NCBI GenBank assembly: GCA_902826225.1
Contig: CADEED010000013.1
Location: 1-54,156 of the forward strand
Length of the DNA stretch: 54,156 nt
Source of the DNA: an uncultured Pseudomonadota bacterium
GTDB taxonomy: Bacteria > Pseudomonadota > Gammaproteobacteria > Steroidobacterales > Steroidobacteraceae
Direction: 5' to 3'
Under the pieces are notes generated by a model. That model made no database searches and was not told the DNA's origin. It saw only the letters and a program-made list of their open reading frames with translations. Both the position numbers and the translations under genes were made by a program. This document shows, one piece after another, positions 32,447 through 39,745 of the stretch (within the stretch, counting starts at the first letter, position 1; each line of letters starts with the position of its first letter).

Positions 32447-32457
32447 TCCCGCGTCGC

Positions 32458-32922
32458 TCAATCCTTCTTCGGCTTGATCAGCTTGTCCCGCAAGTCGATC
32501 TTCCCGCCCGACGCCGAGCTCCGCAGCTCGCTGTAATCGCCGATGATCTCGCGCGTGTCGCGCGAGCCCGCGGCCGCCGGCATCGAATTGAAGTAGTTGC
32601 TGCTGTCCGAATTGCTGCGGAAGCTCAGCGAGCAGATGTACTTGCCGGTCGGGGACGTCGTCCCCGGCCACGACTGCACGATCTTCACGACGCCGCTGTA
32701 CGCCTTCGCGCCGCCGCTGGCCCGCAATGGGATGCGCGGCGAGCTCACGCCGTTGTTGCGGCGCCGCTCCTCGGGCCACCATTGTCCGCAATTGATTTCG
32801 ACGTAGTCCACGGCCGGGTCGATGTTCTTGAGCGAGACCGGGACCTGGAATTCGATCTCGATGGCGTGCCCGAGCGCGGGCAACGCAGCCAAGGCGATCA
32901 TTGGCAGGATTCGACGGATCAT
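32458..32922 (-). CDS. secreted hypothetical protein, partner of repeat protein
   Basis: I do not recognise this 154-aa protein. It has a signal peptide (residues 1-20, ending ALGHA) and a mature part that looks like one beta-rich domain (IEIEFQVPVSLKN, YSGVVKIVQSW, GKYICSLSFRS) with two cysteines (C45, C97) that could form a disulfide, then a charged tail (IDLRDKLIKPKKD). GGGAG lies eight bases before the ATG. That ATG overlaps the stop of the TLEFTG repeat protein by 4 bp, so the two are translationally coupled and probably work together in the periplasm or outside. Confidence 0.7.
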   Translation of the reverse strand: MIRRILPMIALAALPALGHAIEIEFQVPVSLKNIDPAVDYVEINCGQWWPEERRRNNGVSSPRIPLRASGGAKAYSGVVKIVQSWPGTTSPTGKYICSLSFRSNSDSSNYFNSMPAAAGSRDTREIIGDYSELRSSASGGKIDLRDKLIKPKKD

Positions 32923-33251
32923 TTCGTGCTCCCTCGGTGAGTACCGGTGAATTCGAGTGTGCGCGTGCGCAAAGTGGCGTTTTCGGGCGCGGTCTTGCCA
33001 CTCGCGCCGGTGAACTCGAGCGTCACGGTGCGCAGGGTGGCGGACGACGCGGGGCCGGATTGGCTCGAGCCCGCGCCGGTGAACTCGAGCGTCGGGGTGC
33101 GCAGGGTGGCGGACGAGGTGGCCGTGACGCCCGCCCCGGTGCCCGTGAACTCGAGCGTGCGCGTGCGGATCGACGCAGGATCGGCGAGAGCCGCGGCGGA
33201 TAACGCAAGCGCCGCTCCCGCGAGCGTGCGCGAGAGACGATGTCGTGACAT
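32919..33251 (-). CDS. secreted TLEFTG tandem-repeat protein
   Basis: This 110-aa protein is a signal peptide (about 1-23, GAALALSAAALA) followed by four copies of an 11-residue unit: SIRTRTLEFTG (27-37), TLRTPTLEFTG (49-59), TLRTVTLEFTG (72-82) and TLRTRTLEFTG (93-103), joined by 10-12-residue Gly/Ser/Thr/Ala linkers. Each unit looks like an amphipathic beta strand. I know of no family with this repeat. GGAGG seven bases before ATG 33251 fixes the start. The repeats are also clear in the DNA (CTCGAGCGT-type cores at about 63-69 bp spacing, 32944-33158). The stop overlaps the next gene's start. Confidence 0.75.
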   Translation of the reverse strand: MSRHRLSRTLAGAALALSAAALADPASIRTRTLEFTGTGAGVTATSSATLRTPTLEFTGAGSSQSGPASSATLRTVTLEFTGASGKTAPENATLRTRTLEFTGTHRGSTK

Positions 33252-33326
33252 GTCGATCCTCCCCGGCGGCCAGCCGCGGATGTTCTCCGAAGCCGCCGCA
33301 ACTAACAAGAGCGCCCGTCCCGCCGG

Positions 33327-33746
33327 CTACTTGAGCGGCGAGTAGTCAGTCGCGTCGACGAACACGGACTCTATCTTCTCCACGATCTTCCCGTCCTTCT
33401 GCGAGTCCGCGGCGATCTTCTGCCACTCGGGGTCCGCGCTGAACGCGGCCCAGCTCGCCTTGGCCGCCGCGCGGCTCGAGTGCGAGATGACATAGATGAG
33501 CGTGTTGTCCTTCGCGGGGCTGTCTTCGAATGTCCAGTACGCGACATTGGTCATGCCGTGCTTCTCGAACATGCGCAGCGTGTGCTCGCGGAAGCGCTTG
33601 TTCAGGGCGTCCAGGCGCCCCGGAAACGTGTGGTACGTGCGTATCTCGAACACGCGCGGCGGAGGCGCGTCGGCTGCATGCAGGCTGGTGAGACCCGCAC
33701 CCAAAAGGAGCCCGGCGGCCAGGAATACCCAGGATTGCTTCGACAC
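33327..33746 (-). CDS. NIPSNAP family protein, exported
   Basis: This 139-aa protein has a signal peptide (about 1-25, ending SLHAA) and a single NIPSNAP domain (VFEIRTYHTFPGRLDALNKRF; ending with ESVFVDATDYSPLK). The dimeric alpha/beta-barrel fold is common, but its function in bacteria is unknown. It is divergent from pyk; an 8-bp-arm palindrome lies between the two. It follows no obvious operon with the TLEFTG pair (75 bp away, same strand), though co-transcription is possible. Confidence 0.85.
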   Translation of the reverse strand: MSKQSWVFLAAGLLLGAGLTSLHAADAPPPRVFEIRTYHTFPGRLDALNKRFREHTLRMFEKHGMTNVAYWTFEDSPAKDNTLIYVISHSSRAAAKASWAAFSADPEWQKIAADSQKDGKIVEKIESVFVDATDYSPLK

Positions 33747-33765
33747 GAGAAACCTCCGTAAGACG

Positions 33766-33784
33766 ATCCGATTTCGAATCGGAT
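33766..33784. promoter_or_regulatory. perfect palindrome between NIPSNAP gene and pyk
   Basis: ATCCGATT (33766-33773) and AATCGGAT (33777-33784) flank TCG in the 80-bp divergent region. It is centred about 38 bp before the pyk -10, where a regulator or the polymerase would bind. It does not resemble the HexR operator known upstream of glycolytic genes in other gammaproteobacteria. Confidence 0.4.
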
Positions 33785-33812
33785 TATGCGCCCGCGCCTG
33801 CGATCCGCATGG

Positions 33813-33826
33813 CAGAATGCGCGCCC
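33813..33826 (+). promoter_or_regulatory. -10 element and discriminator of pyk
   Basis: CAGAAT is followed by GCGCGCCC and then ATG 33827, so transcription would begin at or next to the start codon. No clear -35 hexamer is visible. The AATGCGCGCCC core is the same as at tkt. Confidence 0.4.
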
Positions 33827-35275
33827 ATGCCAGAACGCCAGATGCACTCGCGTACCAAGATCGTCGCGACCTTGGGACCCGCCACCGATTCGATCGAAGT
33901 CCTCACCGAGATGGTCCGCGCCGGTCTCGACGTCGCCCGCGTGAATTTTTCGCACGGCAAGCACGAAGAGCACGGCCGCCGCATCGATCTCGTCCACGAA
34001 GCGGCGCGGCGCGCCGGCCGCTACGTCGGCATCCTCGCAGACCTGGGCGGCCCCAAGATCCGCATCGAGAGCTTCACTAACAAGAAGGTCGATCTCAAGG
34101 ACGGACAGGCGTTCGCGCTCGACACCGCGCACGATCCCGCCGCGGGCAACGAGCAGGTCGTCGGCTGTGCGTACAAGGAACTGCCGCAGGACGTGAAGCC
34201 GGGCAACCTGCTGCTGCTCAACGACGGCCTCATCGAGCTCGAAGTCACGAAGGTCTCGGGCACGCGCATCGACACGAAGGTCATCACCGGCGGCGAGCTG
34301 TCGAACCGCAAGGGCGTGAACCTCAAGGGCGGCGGCATTTCCGCGGCCGCGCTCTCCGACAAGGATCGCGAGGACATCAAGTTCGCGGCCTCCAAGGGCG
34401 CGGATTACATCGCGGTCTCGTTCGCGCGCGACGCGGCGGACATGCACCTCGCGCGCTCGCTGTTGCGGCTCGCCGGCGGGCACGGCCACGTGTGCGCGAA
34501 GATCGAGCGCCACGAGGCGATCCACAATCTCGTCGAGATCGTCGAGGCGTCCGACTGCGTGATGGTGGCGCGCGGCGACCTCGCGGTCGAGATGGGCTAC
34601 GCGGCCATCACCGGCCTGCAGAAGACCATCATCCACGAGGCTCGATCGCGCAATAAGGTCGTCATCACCGCGACGCAGATGATGGAGTCGATGATCCTGA
34701 GCCCGGTGCCGACGCGCGCCGAGGTCTCGGACGTGGCGAACGCGGTGCTCGACGGCACCGACGCCGTCATGCTCTCGGCCGAGAGCGCAGTCGGCAAATA
34801 CCCGGTGAAAGCCGTGCAGGCCATGGAAGAGGTCATCAACGGCGCGGAGAAGTACCAGCTCACCACGAGCCGCGTGCGTCATCGCGTGGAGGGCCAGGTC
34901 GATCGCACGGAAGAGGCGATCGCGATGGCGGTGATGTACACCGCGAACCACATGAAGGTGCGCGCGATCGTCGCGCTGACCGAATCCGGCACGACGCCGC
35001 TGTGGATGTCGCGTTCGCGCGCGGACATCCCCATCTACGCGTTCACCCGCCATGAATCCACGCGCCGCCGCGTCACGCTGTACCGCGGCGTCTACCCGGT
35101 GCCCTTCGACATCCCGGAAGTGCGCACGCAGGAACTGTTCCGCGCGATCCTCACGATGCTGCTGCAGCTCGAGCTCGTCGAGCCCGGCGAGATGGTCATC
35201 GTGACGAAGGGCGAGCTCACCGGCATCACCGGCGGCACCAACGCGCTGACGATCCTCCGCGTTCCGAAGGACTGA
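33827..35275 (+). CDS. pyk: pyruvate kinase
   Basis: This 482-aa enzyme makes pyruvate and ATP from phosphoenolpyruvate. The barrel motifs RTKIVATLGPATDS, VNFSHGKHEEH, DLGGPKIRIE, KIERHEAI, MVARGDLAVEMGY and VITATQMMESM are intact, and the C domain carries ALTESGTTPLWMSR. The preferred start is ATG 33827, directly after the predicted -10 and discriminator; ATGs at 33809 and 33842 are possible. The penicillin-acylase gene starts 10 bp past the stop. Confidence 0.96.
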   Translation: MPERQMHSRTKIVATLGPATDSIEVLTEMVRAGLDVARVNFSHGKHEEHGRRIDLVHEAARRAGRYVGILADLGGPKIRIESFTNKKVDLKDGQAFALDTAHDPAAGNEQVVGCAYKELPQDVKPGNLLLLNDGLIELEVTKVSGTRIDTKVITGGELSNRKGVNLKGGGISAAALSDKDREDIKFAASKGADYIAVSFARDAADMHLARSLLRLAGGHGHVCAKIERHEAIHNLVEIVEASDCVMVARGDLAVEMGYAAITGLQKTIIHEARSRNKVVITATQMMESMILSPVPTRAEVSDVANAVLDGTDAVMLSAESAVGKYPVKAVQAMEEVINGAEKYQLTTSRVRHRVEGQVDRTEEAIAMAVMYTANHMKVRAIVALTESGTTPLWMSRSRADIPIYAFTRHESTRRRVTLYRGVYPVPFDIPEVRTQELFRAILTMLLQLELVEPGEMVIVTKGELTGITGGTNALTILRVPKD

Positions 35276-35285
35276 GTAACTCCGC

Positions 35286-37658
35286 ATGAGGTGGCTCCGC
35301 TGGCTGCGAAGGACGTTGCTCGTCGTCGCGGCGCTGGCGGTCCTGGCGGCCGGCGCCGCCTGGTGGGCGATGCGCCAGAGCCTGCCGACGATCGACGGGA
35401 GCATCACCGCGCCGTCGCTCGCCGCCGAGGCCACGATCGAGCGCGACGCCCGCGGCCGGCCGGTGATCACCGCGGCATCGCGCACCGATCTCGCTTTCGC
35501 CACCGGCTACGCGCACGCGCAGGATCGCTTCTTCCAGATGGACCTGTCGCGCCGCCTCGCGGCCGGCGAGCTGTCCGAGTTGTTCGGCGACGTCGCATTG
35601 AAGGCGGACATCCGCTCGCGCCGCTTCGGCTTCCGGGCCGTCGCGAAGCAGGTCGTCGAGACGACCACCGGGACCGACCGGCGCGTCATCGACGCGTATG
35701 CGCGCGGCGTGAACGCCGGGCTCGCGAGTCTCTCCGCACGGCCGTGGGAATACCTGTTGTTGCGTTCCGAGCCGCGTCCATGGAGCGCCGAGGACTCGGT
35801 GCTCGTGGTGCACTCGATGTGGTGGCAGCTGCAGTACGGGGTCATCACGGCGGAGATCGAACGCCGCCGTCTGGAACGCGCAGCCGCGGCGGCCTTCACT
35901 CCCACGGCGGCGCACGCGCTGATCACTTTCGTCAATGCCGGCCACTCCGACTGGGACACTCCCAATTTCTCCGGCGCGCCGTGCGAGGGCTGCCGCGCGG
36001 GCTTGCAACCGTGGCCGGAGCTCCTGAAGTTCAAAGGCCCGATCGCGGCGGCCGACGACGAACCCAGACTGCCCGGCAGCAACAACTGGGCCGTGGCTGG
36101 CATCCACACGCGCTCCGGCGCGGCGCTCATCGCCAACGACATGCACCTCGACCTCGGCGTGCCGGCCGTGTGGTACCCGGCGCGGCTGCGCGTGAGGAGC
36201 GATCCGGTGCTCGACGTCTCCGGCGTGACGCTGCCGGGTACGCCCGCCGTCGCCGCCGGGTCGAACGGTCACATCGCGTGGGGCTTCACGAACAGCTATG
36301 GTGATTTCTCGGATGTCCGCTTCGGACCCTGCACGAGCCCGAACTACCGACAGCGCCGCGAGACGATCGCGGTGAAAGGCGGGCCCGACGTGCCCGTGGA
36401 GTTCCAGCTCGTCGGCACGGGTGTCGTGCTCGACGGCGCCGAGTACGCGGACGACGTGACCAGCGGTCAGTGCGCGCAGGTGGGCTGGCTCGCGATGGAC
36501 CCGGGCGCGACCAACTTCTCGCTGCTCGCGCTCGAGAAAGCGGACAGCGTGTCGGCAGCTCTCGGGTGGGCGTCGAATATCGGCATTCCCGGGCAGAACA
36601 TGGTCGTCGGCGACACCACCGGCAGCATTGCCTGGACGGTGCTGGGACGCGTGCCGCGCAGCGTCGGCCCCGATCGCCTGTTTCGCCCGGTCGAATACCG
36701 CGATTCCGGCGACCATCCGGTCATCGTCGACCCGCCGGTGGGCCGCCTCTGGACGGCGAATCAGCGCGTCGTCGACGGCCCGCTCGAGGAGGCCCTGGGC
36801 GACGACGAAGTCGACGTCGGTGCGGGCGGGTACGACATCGGCGCCCGGGCGCGGCAGATCCGCGACGACCTGCTCGGCCTCACCGCGCCCGCGACGCCGG
36901 CCGACATGCTCGCGATCCAGACGGATTCGCGCGCGCTGTTCCTCGCGCGCTGGCGGAACCTGTTGCTCGAGCTGCTCGACGACGAAGCGGTGAAGGCGGT
37001 CGGCGCGCGCCGCGAGTTTCGCGCGCTCGTCAGCGACTGGCAGCCCGACGCCGCGCCGGATGCCGTGGGCTACCGGCTCGTGCGTGCGTTCCGCGGCAAC
37101 GTGCAGGACGCGTTGTGGCACTCGCTCTCGCGCGGGCTGCTCCCGGAAACGAGGCTGCGAAGGCCGGGCGAATTCGAGTCCGCCGCGTGGCGGCTCGTGC
37201 GCGAGACACCGGCCGCGATCGCGCCGCCGGGCGGTGGCGAGTGGCGCGCCTTCCTTCTCGCGCGCGTCGACGACTCGATCGCGGATCTGCGGAAGACCTG
37301 CGCCGCGCTGGCGAACTGCACCTGGGGGTCGCGTCGTCCGGTCGAGGTGCGGCATCCGTTGTCGGGCGCCGTTCCCCTGCTGGCGGGGCTGGTCAACATG
37401 CCGACGCTCGAACTGGCCGGTGATCACCACATGCCACGCGTGCAGGATGGCGCGTTCGGCGCGTCCGAGCGCTTTGCCGTGTCGCCTGGACACGAGACGG
37501 AGGGCTACCTGCAGCTGGCGGGCGGACCCTCCGGGCATCCCCTGTCGCCGTTCTATCGCTCGGATTTCGACGACTGGGCACGCGCCAAGCCGACGCCATT
37601 CCTGCCCGGCCCCGCAGCGCATAAGCTCACCTTGCGGCCGACCGGGTCCGCACCCTGA
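35286..37658 (+). CDS. penicillin acylase family N-terminal nucleophile hydrolase
   Basis: This 790-aa precursor has an N-terminal membrane/signal segment (about 8-28) and the S45 penicillin-amidase fold. The autocatalytic site is LPGSNNWAVAG: cleavage before Ser265 would expose it as the nucleophile of the beta chain. FATGYAHAQDRFFQMDLSRR and NDMHLDLGVPAVWYPARLR are further family motifs. It should hydrolyse amide-linked acyl groups in the periplasm; acyl-homoserine lactones are a known substrate class for relatives, but nothing here decides it. It may be co-transcribed with pyk (10-bp gap). Confidence 0.92.
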   Translation: MRWLRWLRRTLLVVAALAVLAAGAAWWAMRQSLPTIDGSITAPSLAAEATIERDARGRPVITAASRTDLAFATGYAHAQDRFFQMDLSRRLAAGELSELFGDVALKADIRSRRFGFRAVAKQVVETTTGTDRRVIDAYARGVNAGLASLSARPWEYLLLRSEPRPWSAEDSVLVVHSMWWQLQYGVITAEIERRRLERAAAAAFTPTAAHALITFVNAGHSDWDTPNFSGAPCEGCRAGLQPWPELLKFKGPIAAADDEPRLPGSNNWAVAGIHTRSGAALIANDMHLDLGVPAVWYPARLRVRSDPVLDVSGVTLPGTPAVAAGSNGHIAWGFTNSYGDFSDVRFGPCTSPNYRQRRETIAVKGGPDVPVEFQLVGTGVVLDGAEYADDVTSGQCAQVGWLAMDPGATNFSLLALEKADSVSAALGWASNIGIPGQNMVVGDTTGSIAWTVLGRVPRSVGPDRLFRPVEYRDSGDHPVIVDPPVGRLWTANQRVVDGPLEEALGDDEVDVGAGGYDIGARARQIRDDLLGLTAPATPADMLAIQTDSRALFLARWRNLLLELLDDEAVKAVGARREFRALVSDWQPDAAPDAVGYRLVRAFRGNVQDALWHSLSRGLLPETRLRRPGEFESAAWRLVRETPAAIAPPGGGEWRAFLLARVDDSIADLRKTCAALANCTWGSRRPVEVRHPLSGAVPLLAGLVNMPTLELAGDHHMPRVQDGAFGASERFAVSPGHETEGYLQLAGGPSGHPLSPFYRSDFDDWARAKPTPFLPGPAAHKLTLRPTGSAP

Positions 37659-37678
37659 CCAATTCGCAGGACGAGAGC

Positions 37679-38533
37679 ATGAGCGACGCGCGATTCACGG
37701 GCACCGAACGTTACGTCGCGACACCCGACCTCATGACCGCGGTGAACGCCGCCGTCACGCTCGCGCGGCCGCTGCTCATCAAGGGGGAGCCCGGCACCGG
37801 CAAGACGCAGCTGGCGGAAGAGATCGCGAACTCGCTGGCGCGGCCTATCTACGAGTGGCACATCAAGTCGACCAGCAAGGCGTCGCAAGGACTGTACGAA
37901 TACGATGCGGTCTCCCGTTTGCGCGATTCGCAGCTCGGCGAGGAAAAAGTCCGCGACATCCGCAACTACATCGTGAAGGGGCGGTTGTGGGAGGCGTTCG
38001 AGTCGGACGTGCAGCCCGTGCTGCTCATCGACGAGATCGACAAGGCCGACATCGAGTTCCCCAACGACCTGCTGCGCGAGCTCGATCGCATGGAGTTCTG
38101 GGTGCACGAGACGCGCGAGCTCGTGAAGGCGCGGCATCGTCCGATCATCGTCATCACGTCCAACAACGAAAAGGAGCTGCCGGACGCGTTCCTGCGCCGC
38201 TGCTTCTTCCACTACATCCGGTTCCCGGACGCCGAGACGATGGAGAAGATCGTCCGCGTGCATTTCCCGGGGCTCAAGAAGGAGTTGCTCGCCGAGGCGC
38301 TCAGGGCCTTCTTCGACGTGCGCGAGACGCCGGGGCTCAAGAAGAAGCCGTCCACGTCGGAGTTGCTCGACTGGATCAAGCTGCTCGTGGCGGAGGACGT
38401 GCCCCCCGAAGCGCTGCGTTCGGACGACCCGCGGAAGACCATTCCCGTTCTGCACGGCGCGTTGCTCAAGAACGAGCAGGACGTGCACCTGTTCGAGCAG
38501 CTCGTGTTCCTGAATCGCCGCGCCGGCCGGTAG
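37679..38533 (+). CDS. MoxR-type AAA+ ATPase
   Basis: This 284-aa AAA+ ATPase has Walker A GEPGTGKTQ, Walker B LLIDEID, sensor 1 ITSNNEKELPDAF and an arginine-finger region (LRRCFFHYIRFPD). It is closest to the MoxR/CoxD group, which works as a chaperone for metal-cofactor or complex assembly with a VWA partner. The VWA gene starts 6 bp after its stop. No CoxLMS or similar target is in the window, so the client is unknown. Confidence 0.9.
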   Translation: MSDARFTGTERYVATPDLMTAVNAAVTLARPLLIKGEPGTGKTQLAEEIANSLARPIYEWHIKSTSKASQGLYEYDAVSRLRDSQLGEEKVRDIRNYIVKGRLWEAFESDVQPVLLIDEIDKADIEFPNDLLRELDRMEFWVHETRELVKARHRPIIVITSNNEKELPDAFLRRCFFHYIRFPDAETMEKIVRVHFPGLKKELLAEALRAFFDVRETPGLKKKPSTSELLDWIKLLVAEDVPPEALRSDDPRKTIPVLHGALLKNEQDVHLFEQLVFLNRRAGR

Positions 38534-38539
38534 TCGTCG

Positions 38540-39745
38540 ATGCTGGTGCGGTTCTTCACCGATCTGCGCGCCGGCGGGGTCCCGGTCACGCTACCCGAGT
38601 TCCTGAGCCTGCTCGAGGCGCTCGAGGCGCGCGTGGCGGCGCACTCGGCGGAGGAGTTCTACTATCTCTCGCGCCTGGCGCTCGTGAAGGACGAGCGGCA
38701 CTTCGACCGATTCGACCGTGTGTTCGCCGAGCACTTCACCGGCGCCGAAAAGCTGTTCGAAAAGCTGGTCGCCGAGCTGCCCGCGGAGTGGCTGCGGCAG
38801 ATCTCGGAGCGGCTCCTGTCGGCCGAGGAGCGCCGCCAGGTCGAATCGCTCGGCGGCTGGCGGAAGCTGCTGGACACTCTGAAACAACGGCTGCAGGAGC
38901 AGAAGGAGCGGCACGAGGGCGGCAGTCGGTGGATAGGCACCGGCGGAACCTCCCCGTTCGGTCACGGCGGCTACAACCCCGAGGGCATTCGTATCGGCGG
39001 CCCGGGCAGGCAGCGCAGCGCGGTCAAAGTCTGGGAGGCGCGCGAGTATCGCAACTTCGACGAGACCCGCGAGCTCGGCACGCGCAACCTCAAGATGGCC
39101 TTGCGGAAGCTGCGACGCTTCGCGCGCGAGGGCGCGGCGGAGGAGCTCGACCTCGAAGGCACCATCGACGCGACCGCGCGCAACGCGGGACTGCTCGATC
39201 TCAAGCTGGTCCCCGAGCGGCGCAACGCGGTGAAATTGCTGCTGCTGCTCGATGTCGGTGGCTCCATGGATGCGCACGTGCGCGTCTGCGAGGAGCTGTT
39301 TTCGGCGGCGCGCGCCGAGTTCAAGCACCTCGAGTACTTCTACTTCCACAATTTCCCGTACGAACGGCTCTGGAAAGACAATCATCGGCGTTTCAGCGAG
39401 CTCACGCCGACCCCCGCGTTCCTGCGGACGTTCAACTCCGACTACCACGTGATCTTCGTCGGCGACGCGACCATGAGTCCATACGAGATCGAGCAGCCGG
39501 GCGGCAGCGTGGAGCACTGGAACGAGGAATCGGGCCGCGTGTGGATCGAGAGGATCGCGGCGCACTTCCCACGGCTCGTGTGGCTGAATCCCGAGCCCGA
39601 GGATCGCTGGAAATGGACCCCATCGGTGGAGATCACGCGCCAGCTCGTCGGCGGCCGGATGTTTCCGCTGACGCTGGCCGGTCTCGACGACTCGATGCGC
39701 GAACTCAAGCGGCGCGGCGCGCCGCCGCTCGCGCTGCCGACATGA
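38540..39745 (+). CDS. VWA (CoxE-like) domain protein
   Basis: This 401-aa protein carries a C-terminal von Willebrand A domain of the CoxE type. The MIDAS opening is LLLLDVGGSMDAHV, a DxGxS form, and FVGDATMSPYEI gives the later aspartate. The N-terminal half is helical with a Glu/Arg-rich region (RLLSAEERRQVE; RLQEQKERHEGG). It partners the MoxR ATPase directly upstream. No signal peptide. Its TGA stop overlaps the A-run of the downstream terminator. Confidence 0.88.
   Translation: MLVRFFTDLRAGGVPVTLPEFLSLLEALEARVAAHSAEEFYYLSRLALVKDERHFDRFDRVFAEHFTGAEKLFEKLVAELPAEWLRQISERLLSAEERRQVESLGGWRKLLDTLKQRLQEQKERHEGGSRWIGTGGTSPFGHGGYNPEGIRIGGPGRQRSAVKVWEAREYRNFDETRELGTRNLKMALRKLRRFAREGAAEELDLEGTIDATARNAGLLDLKLVPERRNAVKLLLLLDVGGSMDAHVRVCEELFSAARAEFKHLEYFYFHNFPYERLWKDNHRRFSELTPTPAFLRTFNSDYHVIFVGDATMSPYEIEQPGGSVEHWNEESGRVWIERIAAHFPRLVWLNPEPEDRWKWTPSVEITRQLVGGRMFPLTLAGLDDSMRELKRRGAPPLALPT

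Follow-up and report, generated by a model that had tools for sequence, protein, structure and literature searches.

An apparently rare family of predicted secreted RTxxLEFTG repeat proteins, one encoded in overlap with a candidate beta-rich partner

In a 54,156-nucleotide stretch of DNA from an uncultured bacterium of the Steroidobacteraceae (Pseudomonadota; assembly GCA_902826225.1, contig CADEED010000013.1, positions 1 to 54,156; hereafter the window), we find a gene for a small repeat protein, P0001, that represents a real, small, apparently rare and uncharted family, with only three likely relatives found in the sequence searches described here. The protein consists of a signal-like N terminus followed by four ten-residue [IL]RTxTLEFTG units, and its stop codon overlaps the start of a second gene, P0002, here called the partner gene. 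Tentatively, we favour a reading in which the product is a secreted multivalent strand peptide whose units would add edge-on to a beta-sandwich partner, in the style of a tandem beta-zipper.

Results

Architecture of the repeat protein

The initial annotation of this DNA had described a 110-residue exported protein of four units, overlapping by 4 base pairs (bp) a second exported protein with two cysteines, and each of these elements is borne out by the coordinates below, export being predicted for both and the beta-rich character of the second appearing as an all-beta fold in a weak model. The linkers, which had been put at 10-12 residues, measure 12, 13 and 11, the second lying outside that range; the corresponding period is 22, 23 and 21 residues.

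32919..33251, minus strand: repeat gene P0001, 110 amino acids plus stop (ATG 33251-33249, TGA 32921-32919); relatives P0006-P0008
33183..33251, minus strand: predicted Sec signal peptide, residues 1-23 of the repeat protein (cleavage site placed by eye, hydrophobic stretch scored)
33141..33170, minus strand: unit 1, IRTRTLEFTG, from residue 28
33075..33104, minus strand: unit 2, LRTPTLEFTG, from residue 50
33006..33035, minus strand: unit 3, LRTVTLEFTG, from residue 73
32943..32972, minus strand: unit 4, LRTRTLEFTG, from residue 94
33257..33264, minus strand: ribosome-binding-site-like GGGGAGGA, 5-nucleotide spacer to the repeat ATG, read from the sequence
32458..32922, minus strand: partner gene P0002, 154 amino acids plus stop; predicted Sec signal, all-beta model, Cys45 and Cys97
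32929..32935, minus strand: ribosome-binding-site-like GAGGGAG, 6-nucleotide spacer to the partner ATG, read from the sequence
32919..32922, minus strand: ATGA in which the repeat stop and the partner start overlap, read from the sequence

The mature repeat protein has about 87 residues. Mean beta propensity, by textbook values, is 1.07 in the units versus 0.91 in the linkers, and the seven linkers of the four family proteins are 78% Gly, Ser, Thr, Ala, Pro, Asn or Gln. A single-sequence structure model gave no confident fold and was unusable (predicted local distance difference test, pLDDT, 44). A degenerate DNA pattern for the unit has five matches in the organism's own genome, namely the four units and one RTQDFVFTG with Phe for Leu; the same pattern read backwards, as a comparison for chance, has two.

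As the initial annotation had supposed, no known family accounts for the repeat: no curated family claims either the repeat protein or the partner, an LPXTG motif and an A domain are absent from the repeat protein, and a pattern check found no RTX-type GGxGxD nonapeptides. Profiles for the alkane oxidation activators PraA and PraB (NF041561 and NF041562) match weakly over residues 4-78 and 4-77 (expectation values, E, of 0.023 and 0.05), and at 14.2 and 13.3 bits versus cut-offs of 150 and 120 the protein is not a member of either. Sequence searches of the PDB returned chance-level matches only, a literature search for TLEFTG returned unrelated subjects only, and one on strand addition found nothing.

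Three relatives share the repeat

Relatives were sought in a database of 5.8 billion predicted proteins. While a first search with P0001 returned 420 candidates, none at E <= 0.1, a degenerate profile, with the mature repeat as its first row and hand-typed degenerate variants of the unit as the four others, yielded three proteins at E <= 10 from 2102 candidates: P0006 (91 residues, three units, E 1.5e-8), P0007 (69 residues, two units, E 1.6) and P0008 (69 residues, two units, E 2.0), the last two accepted because of their likeness to P0006. The alignment of P0001 with P0006 covers 56 residues at 46%, and their mature parts score 10.8 standard deviations above shuffled sequences (none of 2000 shuffles reaches that score); P0006 and P0007 align at 50% over 48 residues, from the signal-like start through two units, with mature parts 14.3 standard deviations above shuffles, neither value being corrected for database size.

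All four proteins have a signal-like start, at least two [VIL]RTxxL[E][FY][TS]G units and a period of 21-23 residues, features that describe more than they test, since the family was drawn up from these same proteins. Unit numbers are 4, 3, 2 and 2, and the seven periods are 22, 23, 21, 22, 21, 21 and 21. Across the 11 units, R2, T3, L6 and G10 are invariant, as the extraction pattern demanded; position 7 is Glu in nine, position 8 Phe in nine and Tyr in two, and position 9 Thr or Ser in all. The first units of P0006-P0008 begin AV[IV]RTQ and later ones [ST][LI]RT. C-terminal tails in these three are short (for example SPSSGGSR and TASSGAAR), and that of P0001 is THRGSTK. The two-unit members, cut as in the unit analysis, have some 45 mature residues, which is small for a stand-alone fold. 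The expectation of a varying repeat number across many genomes thus holds in its first part, with 3, 2 and 2 units in the relatives, and fails in its second, there being three likely relatives only.

Searches of genomes added none. With unit profile A2, the four own units score E 6e-13 to 2e-11, and no match in the remaining 397 genomes of the phylum sample falls below E 0.01; at E <= 0.1 the profile matches 8 of the 398, own included. P0001 compared with 98 genomes matches 39 places beyond its own (E 0.003 to 0.1), and family profile A5 matches 44 of the 396 genomes from the order (E <= 0.05) and 2 of the 171 from the class (E <= 0.001), the own genome included in both counts. The other class match (E 1.1e-4), in which the unit is not spelled and which overlaps a 371-residue open reading frame (ORF), was rejected. 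A scan of 143 loci found two close relaxed units in none but the copies of the locus in the window itself; it omitted places without a locus (10 of the 39 for P0001 against 98 genomes and 17 of 47 for A5). The strict RTxTLEFTG DNA pattern matches singly at 19 places in the species-genome collection and at 5 in viral contigs; the exact motif is spelled in 11 and 5 of these, respectively, the other 8 carrying Phe for Leu, one with a stop, and none has a second relaxed unit close by in frame. Plasmids held no match for P0007, phages none for P0006, and viral contigs no relative by A5.

Evidence for translation

The repeat ORF is most likely a gene, judging from comparisons of its sequence, and the existence of relatives is the strongest argument. 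Further support comes from the units themselves, which are copies inside one gene and hence not independent: for five of the six unit pairs, synonymous change runs at a higher rate than non-synonymous change, with synonymous versus non-synonymous differences of 7 versus 1 for units 2/4 (7 of 9.7 synonymous sites versus 1 of 23.3 non-synonymous sites), 7 versus 2 for 3/4, 5 versus 3 for 1/4, 4.5 versus 3.5 for 1/2 and 4.5 versus 4.5 for 1/3; only pair 2/3 runs the opposite way (0 versus 2). On the codon analysis proposed with the initial annotation the outcome is mixed: the repeat frame scores best of the six in its interval, yet its score is modest (0.14, compared with 0.49 for the partner and 0.75 for pgk, which was in the training set). 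With an antisense ORF over the same interval scoring 0.09, codon use alone would not settle the status of the gene. P0001 was not returned by the protein search and P0002 was, so gene callers seem to have skipped it.

The partner protein

Relatives of the partner are 51-56% identical to it and keep both cysteines. Its model is all-beta and weak (pLDDT 57), and Foldseek with that model gave a best E of 0.024, with nothing at <= 0.001. The partner was compared with 5wec, a type II secretion pilotin and AspS-like lipoprotein. Pilotins carry a lipobox cysteine where the signal peptide ends; no lipobox pattern occurs in P0002-P0005.

P0002 compared with the 98 genomes gave two matches, both weak and partial: one at E 8e-4, interrupted by two stops, and one at E 0.005. 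Partner profile A1 matches its own genome only among the 396 order genomes and, in the 398 phylum genomes, its own plus three weak partial matches (E 2.5e-4 to 0.003). A back-translated partner pattern hit 128 stretches in species genomes, none encoding a relative, and plasmids held no match for P0002. A single viral-contig match, of 33% across residues 91-153 (E 1e-5 among candidates), was judged to be chance; it lies in a 161-residue ORF of a phage contig that has no signal-like start and shares a PTGKYIC stretch.

The pair lies in a variable gap between pgk and pyk

Pfam places the pair between pgk and pyk. A Pgk search of 28 genomes matched 27, four of them within the genus; outside the genus, 21 of 23 genomes have pyk 7-184 bp after pgk, the exceptions being G065, with no pyk within the 1.5 kb examined, and G061, where the contig ends first. 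Within the genus the gap differs in content in every one of the four members: in the window it holds the repeat-partner pair and a NIPSNAP gene; in G001, a single-contig assembly, a DNA methylase family ORF (PF01555, E 1.3e-15, L035 289-1497, minus strand of the locus); in G002 a beta-lactamase family ORF (PF00144); and in G003 a thioesterase-like ORF (PF13279) with a NIPSNAP gene 66% identical to that of the window. Because the gap is filled differently in each, the pair looks like a recent, species-level insertion.

The conserved partnership anticipated for the two genes did not appear. Within what their assemblies cover (67% complete for G002, 87% for G003), the same pairing was seen in none of the three congeners, an outcome that the initial annotation had named as speaking against its reading, and they gave nothing more than weak matches to either gene (for P0002, none at E <= 0.01; for P0001, E 0.077, 0.069 and none at E <= 0.1). 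The family profile reaches E 0.012 in G003, and the congener match loci hold no second unit. Relatives of the repeat protein lie on contigs of 1674, 44938 and 2995 bp and those of the partner on contigs of 1550, 1407 and 896 bp, none in common; a close partner on the 44.9-kb contig would be expected to surface in the partner search, which argues mildly against conserved pairing.

The surrounding features are as follows.

32447-33832: pgk-pyk interval containing the pair and the NIPSNAP gene
33327..33746, minus strand: NIPSNAP-domain gene (Pfam E 3.6e-15), lying 75 bp upstream of the repeat gene; its product has a signal-like N terminus
32947-33345, plus strand: antisense ORF of 132 amino acids overlapping the repeat gene, codon score 0.09 versus 0.14 for the repeat gene

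The shared strand and 75-bp spacing suggest that the NIPSNAP, repeat and partner genes, in that order, may form an operon. A promoter scan found none, a terminator scan found 2 versus 1.1 expected, near chance level, and the window contains no Rfam families, tRNA or tmRNA. Downstream of pyk, at 35286-39745, lie a penicillin amidase family gene and then AAA ATPase and CoxE-like VWA genes. The GAPDH encoded in the window has its nearest matches among plasmid records in Paraburkholderia and Cupriavidus (72% and 70%), from which the host would likely be a betaproteobacterium.

Discussion

A near-fixed, strand-like unit set among low-complexity spacers and present in two to four copies fits a string of binding motifs. 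In the reading that we tentatively prefer, P0001 would be exported as a mostly unfolded string of four short strand-forming motifs, which would bind beta-sandwich proteins as extra edge strands, the product of the overlapping gene being the predicted first receptor. The ATGA overlap would couple translation and hold the two proteins in step; the strand face carrying Leu6 and Phe8 would dock on an edge strand of the partner, in which Cys45 and Cys97 may form a disulfide; and the number of units would set valency.

The closest mechanism known to us in print is the tandem beta-zipper of FnBPA and FnBPB, in which repeats that are disordered contribute one short strand apiece to a sheet of the ligand (PMC7480013). 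The likeness lies in short repeats on a disordered string and in strand addition, which here would apply to the repeat protein. No such family matched it, however, and it is a small free protein that lacks an A domain and LPXTG and whose mature form has about 87 residues. In chaperone-usher pili, a strand of one protein completes the immunoglobulin-like (Ig-like) sandwich of another by donor-strand complementation; something similar would take place here, although the repeat protein bears repeated strands on a single chain. The 14 window proteins scanned with Pfam (24.9-39.7 kb) include no usher, chaperone or pilin family, and no curli accessory family.

Among the alternatives, an unlikely one, though better placed than those that follow, is curli-like self-assembly, a form of the fibre idea in the initial annotation, in which every unit would supply one rung of a cross-beta fibre while the partner served as chaperone, nucleator or cap. 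CsgA has a period of about 22 residues and, like P0001, is a small exported protein of imperfect repeats, and the period of 21-23 residues over seven intervals, the strand-prone units, the signal-like N termini and the variable copy number would all suit such a fibre. The Escherichia coli CsgA repeat is S-x5-Q-x-G-x-G-N-x-A-x3-Q and can differ in other species, as stated in PMC8151669; P0001 lacks this Gln/Asn pattern, even in relaxed form. Against a fibre also stand the Arg in every unit and Glu in most, the shortness of the two-unit members and, by eye, the lack of any position identical across all seven linkers.

Less probable still is a single small fold made by the units together, or a homo-oligomeric sheet, instead of separate binding motifs. 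The nearly constant spacing would agree with this, as would the different first and later units of P0006-P0008, by which units keep a position-specific identity; a copy number ranging from 2 to 4, unconserved linker sequence and, as weak evidence, the foldless single-sequence model would not. Nearly level with it, and also improbable, is that the two genes are functionally unrelated passengers lying side by side in a variable gap: the turnover of gap genes among the four genus members and the failure to see pairing among relatives would be expected of passengers, whereas signal-like N termini on both products would not, nor would the ATGA overlap, such overlaps being typical of coupled genes. 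We give slightly less credence to a precursor of small secreted peptides, in which the unit would be the product, cut from its linkers after export. Conserved units, variable spacers, a signal-like start and changing copy number fit a multi-core precursor, but inspection by eye of the seven linkers revealed no consistent cleavage motif, and the flanking genes (pgk, NIPSNAP and pyk) include no directly adjoining modifying-enzyme or peptidase gene. That the ORF is not a gene at all is very improbable: the modest codon score, its apparent omission by gene callers and the purely non-synonymous change in unit pair 2/3 are outweighed by relatives of the same architecture, the higher synonymous rate in the other five pairs and the ribosome-binding-site-like stretch before its ATG.

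A bolder and more doubtful form of the preferred strand-addition reading is that these proteins constitute a new class of secreted strand strings, whose RTxxLEFTG units would clip singly onto an Ig-like partner made in step. The count of units would then decide how many partners become cross-linked in an assembly at the surface or outside the cell. Short repeat proteins that are secreted readily escape notice, as P0001, unreturned from 5.8 billion predicted proteins while its neighbour was returned, illustrates. A near-fixed unit amid changing spacers and copy number suggests a motif for binding or assembly, and the series of two- to four-unit proteins found in nature would allow a direct test of valency; the finding would carry greatest weight should the motif turn out to be a portable strand tag with a beta-sandwich receptor.
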